Of a stretch of 64,000 bases of DNA, positions 60,036-63,735 are shown piece after piece. Made by a program: the position numbers and the translations under genes. The DNA comes from Thermoplasmata archaeon (GTDB lineage Archaea > Thermoplasmatota > Thermoplasmata > Lutacidiplasmatales > UBA184): contig DASPVQ010000027.1 in assembly GCA_035622275.1 (NCBI GenBank), forward strand, positions 1 through 64,000, in the 5' to 3' direction. Each line of letters begins with the position of its first letter. Position 1 is the first letter of the stretch. The notes below the pieces were generated by a model that made no database searches, was not told the origin of the DNA, and saw only the letters and a program-made list of their open reading frames with translations.

Positions 60036-62237
60036 GTGACGCATATCCGGGCGGAGTTGGCGAAGGCCATCCCCGAGATGATGCACCAGGTCGACAAGAT
60101 CCGCAACATCGGGATCGTCGCTCACATCCATCACGGCAAGACGACCCTCAGCGACAACCTCCTCGCCGCCGCCGGCATGATCTCGAACGAGCTCGCCGGA
60201 AAGCAGTTGCTGCTCAACTTCGACGAGCAAGAGCAGGCGCGCCTCCTCACGATCAACAACGCCGACGTCTCGATCGTCCACGAGTACGAGAAATCGAACT
60301 ACCTGATCAACCTCATCGACACGCCGGGCCACGTCGACTTCGGCGGGGACGTCACGCGCGCGATGCGCGCGGTCGACGGGGCGGTCGTCGTCGTCTGCGC
60401 GGTCGAGGGCGTCATGGCACAGACCGAGACGGTGCTGCGCCAGGCGCTCCGCGAGAAGGTCAAGCCGGTCCTGTTCATCAACAAGGTCGACCGAGCGATC
60501 AAGGAGCTCCAGCTGACGCCGGAATCACTGCAGCGGCGCTTCGCGACGATCATCTCCGAGGTCAACGAGCTGATACGGCGCATGGCCCCCGAGGAGTTCG
60601 TCGACGCCTGGAGCGTCGACCCGCGCGACGGGTCCGTCGCCTTCGGCTCCGGCTATGAGAACTGGGCGATCAGCGTGCCGTACATGCAGCGGACCGGCGT
60701 GAAGTTTCCCGACATCATCGAGTACGTCACGAGCGGCCGGTCGAAGGAGATCGCGCAGCGCGCGAAGATCAACGACGTGATCTTCGACATGGTGGTCAAG
60801 CACCTTCCCAGCCCGCGCGTCGCGCAGCAGTACCGCATCCCGAACATCTGGCGGGGCGACATCGGCTCGCCGATCGGTCAGGCGATGCTCGCGACGGATG
60901 CCGCGGGCCCGACGGCGTTCATGGTCACCGACATCACCATGGACCCGAACGCCGGCGAGATCGCGACCGGCCGGGTCTTCTCCGGCAAGCTGCAGAAGGG
61001 CATGGAGCTGCAGATCATCGGGACCAAGATCAAGAACCGGATCCAGCACGTCTCGCTCTTCATGGGCCCCGAGCGGCTGATGGTCGAGGAGGTCACGGCC
61101 GGCAACATCGGCGCGGTCATCGGCCTCACGGACGCGTTCGCGGGGACGACCACGTCGACGGCCGTGGACATGGTGCCGTTCGAGGAGATCCGGCACGTCT
61201 CGGAGCCGGTCGTCACGGTCGCGATCGAGCCCAAGCGGATGGCCGATCTGCCCAAGCTGATCGAGACGATGCGCAAGGTCGCCAAGGAGGACGCGAGCCT
61301 GCGGGTCGAGATCAACCCCGAAACGGGGGAGCACCTGCTGAGCGGGATGGGCGAGCTCCACCTCGAGATCACCCAGTACCGGATCGTCAACGACTACAAG
61401 GTCGAGATCGAGTCGTCCAAGCCGATCGTCGTCTACCGCGAGCTCGTCCAGCATCCGGGCGGCCCGTTCGAGGGCAAGTCCCCGAACAAGCACAACCGCT
61501 TCTACCTCGAGGTGGAGCCGCTCCCGATGCCGGTCGTCCAGGCGATCAAGGACGGCGAGGTCCCCCAGGGCAAGTCGTTCAAGGACGTCAAGACCCTCGT
61601 CACCAAGCTCGAGGGGCTGGGGATCCCGCGGGACGAGGGCCGGGGGATCGTCGCGGTCGAGGGGACGAACGTCCTGTTCGACGTCACGAAGGGCATCCAG
61701 TACCTCAACGAGACGATGGACCTCATCGTCGACGCGTTCAAGGAGGCGATGAACCGCGGCCCGCTCGCGAACGAGAAGGTCTACGGCCTCAAGGTCCGAC
61801 TCGTCGACGCCAAGCTCCACGAGGACTCGATCCACCGCGGTCCGGCCCAGACGATCCCCGCCGCCCGGTCCGGGATGTACGGCGCGATGGTGCTCGCCGA
61901 CCGGATCCTGCTCGAGCCGTTCCAGAAGGTGACGGTGAACGTCCCGCAGGAGGTGCTCGCCGGCGCGACCCGGGAGCTCCAGCGTCGCCGCGGCGAGATC
62001 CTCGACATGACGAGCGTCGGCGACCTGCAGACGATCACGGCGAAGGTCCCGGTCGCCGAGATGTTCGGCTTCGCCTCCGACATCCGCAGCGCGACCGCCG
62101 GCAAGGTGCTCTGGTCGACCGAGTCGATGGGCTTCGAGCCGGTGCCGGTCGAGCTCCAGCCCGGCGTGGTCGCGGAGATCCGCCAGCGCCGGGGGCTCAA
62201 GCCCGAACCCTACGACGCGGCCTACTACGCCGGGTGA
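60036..62237 (+). CDS. fusA: Translation elongation factor 2
   Basis: 733 residues. EF-2 drives ribosome translocation with GTP. G3 DTPGHVDF (95-102) and G4 NKVD are standard, and the diphthamide loop LHEDSIHRGPAQ carries the modifiable His 600. Two motifs are unusual: G1 is AHIHHGKTT, with His 32 in place of the near-universal Asp, and the G2/switch-I motif RGITI is RLLTI (69-73). The rest aligns with archaeal EF-2 through to the C-terminal RPEPYDAxYYA-type ending. A strong Shine-Dalgarno precedes the GTG. Only one EF-2 is in the window. Confidence 0.95.
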   Translation: MTHIRAELAKAIPEMMHQVDKIRNIGIVAHIHHGKTTLSDNLLAAAGMISNELAGKQLLLNFDEQEQARLLTINNADVSIVHEYEKSNYLINLIDTPGHVDFGGDVTRAMRAVDGAVVVVCAVEGVMAQTETVLRQALREKVKPVLFINKVDRAIKELQLTPESLQRRFATIISEVNELIRRMAPEEFVDAWSVDPRDGSVAFGSGYENWAISVPYMQRTGVKFPDIIEYVTSGRSKEIAQRAKINDVIFDMVVKHLPSPRVAQQYRIPNIWRGDIGSPIGQAMLATDAAGPTAFMVTDITMDPNAGEIATGRVFSGKLQKGMELQIIGTKIKNRIQHVSLFMGPERLMVEEVTAGNIGAVIGLTDAFAGTTTSTAVDMVPFEEIRHVSEPVVTVAIEPKRMADLPKLIETMRKVAKEDASLRVEINPETGEHLLSGMGELHLEITQYRIVNDYKVEIESSKPIVVYRELVQHPGGPFEGKSPNKHNRFYLEVEPLPMPVVQAIKDGEVPQGKSFKDVKTLVTKLEGLGIPRDEGRGIVAVEGTNVLFDVTKGIQYLNETMDLIVDAFKEAMNRGPLANEKVYGLKVRLVDAKLHEDSIHRGPAQTIPAARSGMYGAMVLADRILLEPFQKVTVNVPQEVLAGATRELQRRRGEILDMTSVGDLQTITAKVPVAEMFGFASDIRSATAGKVLWSTESMGFEPVPVELQPGVVAEIRQRRGLKPEPYDAAYYAG

Positions 62238-62243
62238 GCCAGT

Positions 62244-62370
62244 TCCTACTACGAACTGTAGTAGCTACTTCCTTCCTTTCTTACTACGTACCGTAGTAGC
62301 TACGGCGGACATCACCTACTACGATCCGTAGTAGGTTACGTCCCAATACCTACTACGACGCATAGTAGGT
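62244..62370. repeat. Array of four 23-bp palindromes
   Basis: Four copies start near 62244, 62279, 62314 and 62348. Each has arms of ACCTACTAC and GTAGTAGGT (with outer changes in copies 1 and 2 and one inner change in copy 4) around a 5-base spacer that always begins with G. Linkers are 12, 12 and 11 bases, giving a 34-35 bp period. The array fills a convergent gap between EF-2 and ogt and is clearly AT-richer than its surroundings. Copy 3 is perfect. A related site lies at 21284-21305. Confidence 0.9.
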
Positions 62371-62411
62371 AAGCGAACCGTTCGGCGCCGGGCGCGGGGA
62401 TGGGCCGCGGT

Positions 62412-62993
62412 TCACGCCGTCGCGGAGGAGACGTCGAGCGTCCGCTGGGAGCGGTCCCGCGGCCCTTCGGCGGAGCGGGAGCGGATCGGCCAGGCACCCT
62501 CGTGGTCGAGGAGCCAGCGCTTCCTCCAGAGGCCCAGTCCGTAACCGGTGATCGAGCCCCCGGTGCCGATCACGCGATGGCAGGGGATCACGATCGGTAT
62601 CGGATTGCGGGCCATGGCGCCGCCCACGGCCCGGGCGGACCCGCCGTAGCCGGCCCGACGGGCCAGCTCGGCGTAGGTGAGGGTCTGCCCCGCCCCGACG
62701 CCGCGCAGGGTCGCCCAGACGGTGCGGTCGAACTCGGAGGCGGTGTCCGGATCGACCTCGAGCTCGAAGCCGCGGCGGTCGCCGCGGAAGTACTCCTGGA
62801 GCTGGCGGGGCGGGCTGCCGGCGGGGAACGGCGCCTTGCGCCGGGCCGCACCGACCGGCGTACCGGTCTGGGCCACGCCGTTCTCGAGGAGGTCCACGAC
62901 CCGCACGGTCGAACCGCGATAGGCGACGCGGAACGTACCGATCGGCGTGGGGACGTCCGCGAACTCGACGGAGAGGTCCACGGGCCGCGACAC
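62412..62993 (-). CDS. ogt: Methylated-DNA-protein cysteine methyltransferase
   Basis: 193 residues. It repairs O6-alkylguanine by suicidal transfer to its own Cys. The active site IVIPCHRVIG (about 145-154) and the GYGLGLWRKRWLLDHEGA ending are intact. DRTVWATLRGVGAGQTLTYAELARRAG forms the helix-turn-helix DNA-binding part (core shown), with Asn of MARNPIPIVI conserved. An N-terminal domain of about 75 residues is present as in Ogt. Its 3' end faces the palindrome array. Confidence 0.93.
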   Translation of the reverse strand: MSRPVDLSVEFADVPTPIGTFRVAYRGSTVRVVDLLENGVAQTGTPVGAARRKAPFPAGSPPRQLQEYFRGDRRGFELEVDPDTASEFDRTVWATLRGVGAGQTLTYAELARRAGYGGSARAVGGAMARNPIPIVIPCHRVIGTGGSITGYGLGLWRKRWLLDHEGAWPIRSRSAEGPRDRSQRTLDVSSATA

Positions 62994-63015: not shown

Positions 63016-63735
63016 CTAGTCCGCGGCGGGAGAGGTCGCGAAACGCTCCCCGCCGGCGACGGACTCGAGGCCCGTCGGCCCGATGCGGAACTCGGCCGAG
63101 GCCTCGGGCCGGCTCCGGTGCTTCACGAGGACCGCCCGCCGCCGCGCGCCGGCGAGGCGCTCGAAGCGCAGGATCGTCTTCGCCGCGTGGTTCAGGAACG
63201 ATCCGCCGAGGGGCTCGAGGGTCCCCGCGCTCACGCTGCGCCAGACCTGGTTCGTGAGGACGACCGGGACCTCGGCCTGCAGGGCCGTCGCGACGAGCTC
63301 GGCGAGCTCCAGGCTGAGCGCCTGTCGCGCCTCGTCCTCGTCCGATCCCGACAGCGAGAGCCGGTAGTAGTAGGTCGCCGAGTCGACGACGATCAGGCCG
63401 ACCGGACGCTGGCCCTCCCGGGTGAGCGCGCAGGCGGTCGCGATCGCCCGCCCCTGCTCGGCGAGGTCGCGCGGCGTGGACAGGAGGATGCGGTGCAGCA
63501 GTCGCTCGAGCTCGTCGCCCGCGATCGCCCGGAGCCGGTCGACGCTCACCCCCTCGGTGTCGACGTAGAAGACCCAGCGGTCCTCCCGCGCGGCCCGGAC
63601 CGCGAGCTCGAGGCAGAACAGCGTCTTGCCGCTCCCGCCCTCCCCGTAGATCTCGGTAAGGCAGTCGGTCTCGAGCCCCCCGCCGAGGAGGCCGTCGATC
63701 GATCCGATCCCCGTCGGCCAGCGCTCGGTCGGCAC
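63016..63735 (-). CDS. radB: RadB, RecA-family recombination protein
   Basis: 239 residues from GTG 63735. RadB is the short euryarchaeal RadA paralogue without the N-terminal domain. Walker A is GEGGSGKT (31-38) and Walker B region is VGLIVVDSATYYYRL. The L1/L2-like part is VPVVLTNQVWRSV, and GGSFLNHAAKTILRFERL is near the C-terminus. A TATA-like CATTAAG is 29 nt upstream and contains the stop codon of the preceding gene, as for polymerase B. Confidence 0.92.
   Translation of the reverse strand: MPTERWPTGIGSIDGLLGGGLETDCLTEIYGEGGSGKTLFCLELAVRAAREDRWVFYVDTEGVSVDRLRAIAGDELERLLHRILLSTPRDLAEQGRAIATACALTREGQRPVGLIVVDSATYYYRLSLSGSDEDEARQALSLELAELVATALQAEVPVVLTNQVWRSVSAGTLEPLGGSFLNHAAKTILRFERLAGARRRAVLVKHRSRPEASAEFRIGPTGLESVAGGERFATSPAAD

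Follow-up and report, generated by a model that had tools for sequence, protein, structure and literature searches.

An array of palindromic sites at a single locus beyond the EF-2 gene of Lutacidiplasmatales archaea has a core in common with probable BlaI-type operators

Sequence-specific sites confined to one locus and lying outside promoters often mark chromosome-level functions, and we know of no such single-locus, non-promoter site in Thermoplasmatota. In bacteria, the parS sites of the ParB system are palindromic and clustered in one chromosomal region. In archaea, palindromic SegB sites with a proposed role in chromosome organization are found in Sulfolobales, where the motif TCTAGASTCTAGA occurs at some 40-50 dispersed sites, most of them within genes (PMC12284271). 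Here we describe an array of palindromes in a 64,000-nucleotide stretch of DNA, the whole of which we call the window, from a soil archaeon of the order Lutacidiplasmatales, and follow it through close relatives of this host. Like parS, the sites are clustered in one chromosomal region; from those of SegB they differ in having another sequence and in forming one cluster instead of many scattered sites. Moreover, the array lies where an ordinary gene switch is not expected.

The first-pass annotation of the window, made from its letters, had pointed out four 23-bp palindromes with a regular period in the AT-richer gap between two converging genes. This layout was borne out: the unit starts are 35, 35, and 34 bp apart with linkers of 12, 12, and 11 bp, and the 5-base spacer begins with G in all four units. 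The gap is bounded by the end of EF-2 (62237, forward strand) and that of an ogt/MGMT-like gene (62412, reverse strand), its GC content is 55% (47% in the array itself) against 71% for the window, and no gene start adjoins the array, as had also been said. Only the quoted arms needed correction, since ACCTACTAC and GTAGTAGGT are exact in unit 3 alone while units 1, 2, and 4 deviate at 2, 3, and 1 positions, respectively. The features of the locus are listed in the table.

Table. Coordinates of the array and of its neighbours in the window
Feature	Coordinates	Strand	Remarks
EF-2 (aEF-2), left neighbour of the array	60036..62237	+	Final gene of the S12-S7-EF-2 cluster
EF-2 last codons (..CCTACTACGCCGGGTGA), half-site resembling array units	62221..62237	+	
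Palindromic unit 1	62244..62266	.	TCCTACTAC-GAACT-GTAGTAGCT; PWM score 37.3
Palindromic unit 2	62279..62301	.	TCTTACTAC-GTACC-GTAGTAGCT; PWM score 33.3
Palindromic unit 3	62314..62336	.	ACCTACTAC-GATCC-GTAGTAGGT, exact to consensus; PWM score 36.9
Palindromic unit 4	62348..62370	.	ACCTACTAC-GACGC-ATAGTAGGT; PWM score 35.1
O6-methylguanine-DNA methyltransferase-like gene (ogt/MGMT-like), right neighbour, convergent	62412..62993	-	Pfam DNA_binding_1
RadB-like recombinase (Rad51/RecA family), gene next to ogt	63016..63735	-	

The four-unit array is real and not a product of chance. The window holds 15 matches with up to three mismatches to the pattern, against 1.65 expected in shuffled sequence. 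With a PWM built from 59 units, the window's own four included, these four scored 33-37 bits, and first-order random sequence, 1.7 Mb in all, reached 7.8 at best. When the same PWM was run over three long contigs from three genomes, the array units scored 25-37 bits and nothing else in 748 kb exceeded 4. In the host genome (1.73 Mb) the array is the sole place with no more than one mismatch to the pattern, and matches with two mismatches showed no excess over a reversed-pattern control. Recurrence of the pattern after many genes, which had been proposed as a sign of transcription terminators, was thus not what we found.

Most genomes of the same genus carry one cluster of 1-5 units after EF-2, once per genome, these counts coming partly from fragmented MAGs in which some contig ends are close to the array. 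Such an array is also carried by SubAcS9-61 (locus L160), a Lutacidiplasmatales MAG listed in PMC9287336, and the ogt-RadB block downstream of the array is kept in most relatives. The EF-2/ogt gap of G007, G010, G013, G018, G019, and G028 holds no array units. Outside the window genus, a strict two-unit pattern had no match among 106 genomes of the order and 293 of the phylum, but such a pattern misses arrays as degenerate as those of g29, the sister genus in which the EF-2 context led us to arrays (G081, G082, and G086). On an EF-2 protein tree, some inner branches of which are poorly supported, the arrays group in one clade made up of the core of the window genus and g29, with a loss in G013/G019. 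G024, which falls outside this clade, has a single unit overlapping the EF-2 stop codon. Absence from close relatives had been named as an argument against a conserved function; it applies to one branch, in which the array was lost and is dispensable (G013/G019), whereas most of the clade has kept it.

Comparison of the units gave the consensus W-A-S-Y-TACTAC-RNNNY-GTAGTA-R-S-T-W. The TACTAC and GTAGTA positions are nearly fixed, the flanks follow W-A-S-Y, and the 5-bp centre reads R-NNN-Y in 52 of the 59 archaeal units. The linkers, on the other hand, diverge freely and do not align among relatives, and units are loosely spaced, at 30-90 bp with linkers of about 10-70 bp; past a first peak at 30-36 bp we saw no helical phasing. 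A CRISPR-like array, with identical repeats and spacers of constant length, does not fit, as the repeat centres vary and the spacing ranges over 30-90 bp. We then looked at the two arms as partners in a stem and found no compensatory covariation: at no variable stem position did the frequency of Watson-Crick pairs depart from the shuffle expectation and, particularly, stem position 2/22 was near independence (CG 27, CC 11, GG 10, GC 6). Partner positions that do not covary make the units look like double-stranded DNA half-sites for a protein dimer rather than RNA hairpins. The suggestion that the palindromes are an iterated protein-binding site is therefore supported, as a prediction, by the single locus, the clade-wide conservation of the core, and the independence of the half-sites.

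The 3′ end of the EF-2 gene resembles the units. In most genomes EF-2 ends in codons TACTACnnnGGnTAG/TGA, a half-site, and four relatives (G023, G024, G081, and G082) have a full unit overlapping the stop codon. As judged from these two observations, the palindrome-like EF-2 3′ end was probably the founder from which the array grew. Its present neighbours are nevertheless not essential. In G033 other genes part EF-2 from the array by 5.6 kb, and the array is intact, its units still scoring 28-36 bits. The inserted segment (L109:1045-6150) encodes a winged-helix-like protein and two long proteins that look secreted, along with small neighbouring ORFs; no integrase was recognized by eye among them. 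On the other side, a methyltransferase-like gene lies between array and ogt in G030, and about 0.4 kb separates them in G017; in both genomes ogt is displaced, not lost. In all three genomes the array remains between converging frames despite the changed neighbours. The array thus needs neither EF-2 nor ogt alongside, and its persistence through insertions on either side favours a neighbour-independent role of this single locus over that of an EF-2 terminator.

To find comparable sites elsewhere, 84,980 genomes were scanned with the two-unit pattern. Besides the archaeal clade, the scan returned a large set of actinobacterial loci. In 36 out of 36 of these (L118, L126, L144, and L172 among them), from Actinomadura, Actinoallomurus, and Aeromicrobium, sites with the core TACTAC-N5-GTAGTA lie within 400 bp upstream of the start of cydA. 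The R..Y centre is present in 47 of the 48 distinct Actinomadura/Actinoallomurus sites, but in only 7 of 15 from Aeromicrobium. At L172, the sole Aeromicrobium locus whose neighbour was read, a gene of the Penicillinase_R (BlaI) family is divergent to cydA, and the tandem sites upstream of cydA in the three genera probably constitute a BlaI-type cyd regulon. Twenty loci on viral contigs with the two-unit pattern, judged on site sequences and GC content only, look like unrelated repeats, and the matches in Parabacteroides, Methanothermococcus, and others were set aside by eye as unrelated repeats or other operators, genes having been read for few of them.

A strong Penicillinase_R (BlaI-type) protein is encoded once in 34 of the 37 genomes of the window genus. 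Its alignment with the Aeromicrobium protein covers 103 positions at 36% identity, and both proteins contain AYTTVxT. From this resemblance of proteins and sites, the clade's own BlaI-like protein may be put forward, tentatively, as a candidate binder of the array. The array core also resembles what we take to be the BlaI operator of Mycobacterium tuberculosis, a likeness that we did not use as a test; the sequence of that operator is not quoted in the literature texts we searched. The protein is present in array-less relatives as well, including g25 and g28, and its AYTTVAT stretch is unchanged in G013/G019, where the array was lost. Autoregulation through the array motif is not supported: the blaI loci carry no array-type site, and a different conserved motif, GTWCGWACNNGTNCGTTC, stands in the blaI promoter. 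In most genomes of the window genus this motif is found ahead of the BlaI-like gene (L210, about 1430-1447; G000:C2:47049-47066), directly preceding a TTAA box, and is likely a separate operator. Directly downstream of the gene, in G000 (L210:1874-2770), there is an M48/M56-type (BlaR1-like) peptidase, the same gene arrangement as in bacterial blaI-blaR pairs.

The explanation we consider reasonably probable is that the units are clustered sites on double-stranded DNA, with one half-site for each subunit of a homodimer, and that the cluster probably arose from the EF-2 3′ end and is selected at one locus. A palindrome-like end of the EF-2 gene would have multiplied into an array, which selection would keep at one chromosomal locus in one Lutacidiplasmatales clade, and a homodimeric DNA-binding protein would read the units. 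We infer that this protein may be a dimeric winged-helix protein, most likely of BlaI/MecI-type specificity, and that the bound cluster may act as a neighbour-independent nucleoprotein locus rather than serve a flanking gene as operator. The cluster occurs once in the genome, lies away from promoters, and persists when its neighbours change, all of which points to a locus-marking role. What the bound array might be is more conjectural; a chromosome anchor or a parS-like mark is a tentative proposal. The stronger claim, that it would be a new, ParB-independent archaeal anchor or centromere-like locus whose BlaI-type sites evolved from the EF-2 3′ end and are bound by a recruited repressor-fold protein, we regard as unlikely at present. 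Should the binder prove to be of BlaI type, a bacterial repressor fold would have been put to a use beyond the control of promoters. Although the hosts are uncultured, the short and conserved array can easily be tested in vitro.

The main rival to a neighbour-independent DNA locus is a protein-bound roadblock, in which the occupied sites would halt RNA polymerase arriving from EF-2 and from ogt/RadB and so insulate the converging operons. The convergent gap retained in the three genomes with a changed neighbour is in accordance with it, as is the fact that the array sits where the S12-S7-EF-2 cluster ends. We find the roadblock doubtful, however: convergent gaps are presumably numerous, yet a genome has only one such array; relatives that lack it get by with some 20-190 bp between EF-2 and ogt; and the array of G033 no longer follows EF-2. 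Less probable still is an operator or decoy cluster that titrates or locally regulates the BlaI-like repressor of the clade. The identity of the core to that of the sites beside the BlaI gene in Aeromicrobium and the occurrence of the protein in nearly all genomes of the window genus would fit such a cluster, but no promoter was recognized at the array, the convergent gap contains no gene start, the blaI promoter has its own motif, and the loss of the array in G013/G019 left the AYTTVAT stretch as it was.

The first-pass annotation had offered tandem RNA hairpins that end EF-2 transcripts as its alternative, and a terminator, processing, or stability element in the EF-2 3′ UTR would agree with the folding of the gap on the EF-2 strand, which is better than that of shuffles (-73.2 kcal/mol, z -4.1). 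Good folding is, nonetheless, expected of any palindrome. Core substitutions on the EF-2 strand also favour G.U over A.C (20 vs 6, p about 0.009 with related units counted as if independent); this excess would fit an RNA reading, but a transcription-linked C-to-T bias could produce the same. Since covariation is absent from every stem position, so that base identity and not pairing is conserved, since a sigma-70/terminator consensus scan found no terminator-like site (no stem with a U tract) at the array, and since the intact array of G033 is 5.6 kb from EF-2, hairpins are disfavoured and in our opinion improbable.

Inverted arms round a variable centre are also the form of recombinase core sites, which the array resembles. 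It is very improbable, however, that the units are scars of a tyrosine recombinase or casposon-like element that repeatedly used the EF-2 3′ end as attachment or target site and left tandem copies, even with a unit-like gene end and a full unit over the stop codon in four genomes: scars would drift, yet here the arms are under strong constraint and it is the centre that varies freely; the linkers, about 10-70 bp, leave too little room for elements; and no integrase was recognized by eye in the G033 insertion. The gene beside the array is the same one that thaumarchaeal casposons target, ef-2 being apparently their commonest target (PMC6563490), which would speak for scars. A casposon insertion leaves a large element flanked by direct target duplications of 14-15 bp (PMC6614799), in contrast to the short palindromes and short linkers of the array, and the casposon target in Aciduliprofundum is tRNA-Pro, not EF-2 (PMC6614799; PMC6563490).

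Finally, we return to the known systems that a neighbour-independent, protein-bound locus most resembles. With regard to parS, five genomes with the array (G000, G001, G002, G026, and G029) gave no ParB_N match, and matches are weak or borderline in a few others (e.g., G022, G027, and G033). Within the sampled genus, the top two ParB_N matches come from array-less genomes (G018:C2:106312-106584 and G019:C115:26905-27177). In G001 and G029 the array and the main orc1/cdc6 gene are 67-70 kb apart; the EF-2/orc1 linkage is also present in the array-less G019, where EF-2 keeps its orientation and a distance to orc1 of about 110 kb. GC skew was flat, with no origin or terminus signal that would place the array. 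A further comparison is with BlaI/MecI/CopY-type operators. The sites upstream of cydA and those of the archaeal array have in common the core TACTAC-5 bp-GTAGTA and a tandem arrangement, the R..Y rule extends to the Actinomadura group, and the site starts in Actinomadura are 34 bp apart, near the 34-35 bp of the archaeon. They differ in that the cydA sites are directly upstream of a gene, whereas the archaeal array stands at convergent gene ends and has additional constrained flanks (A-S-Y).
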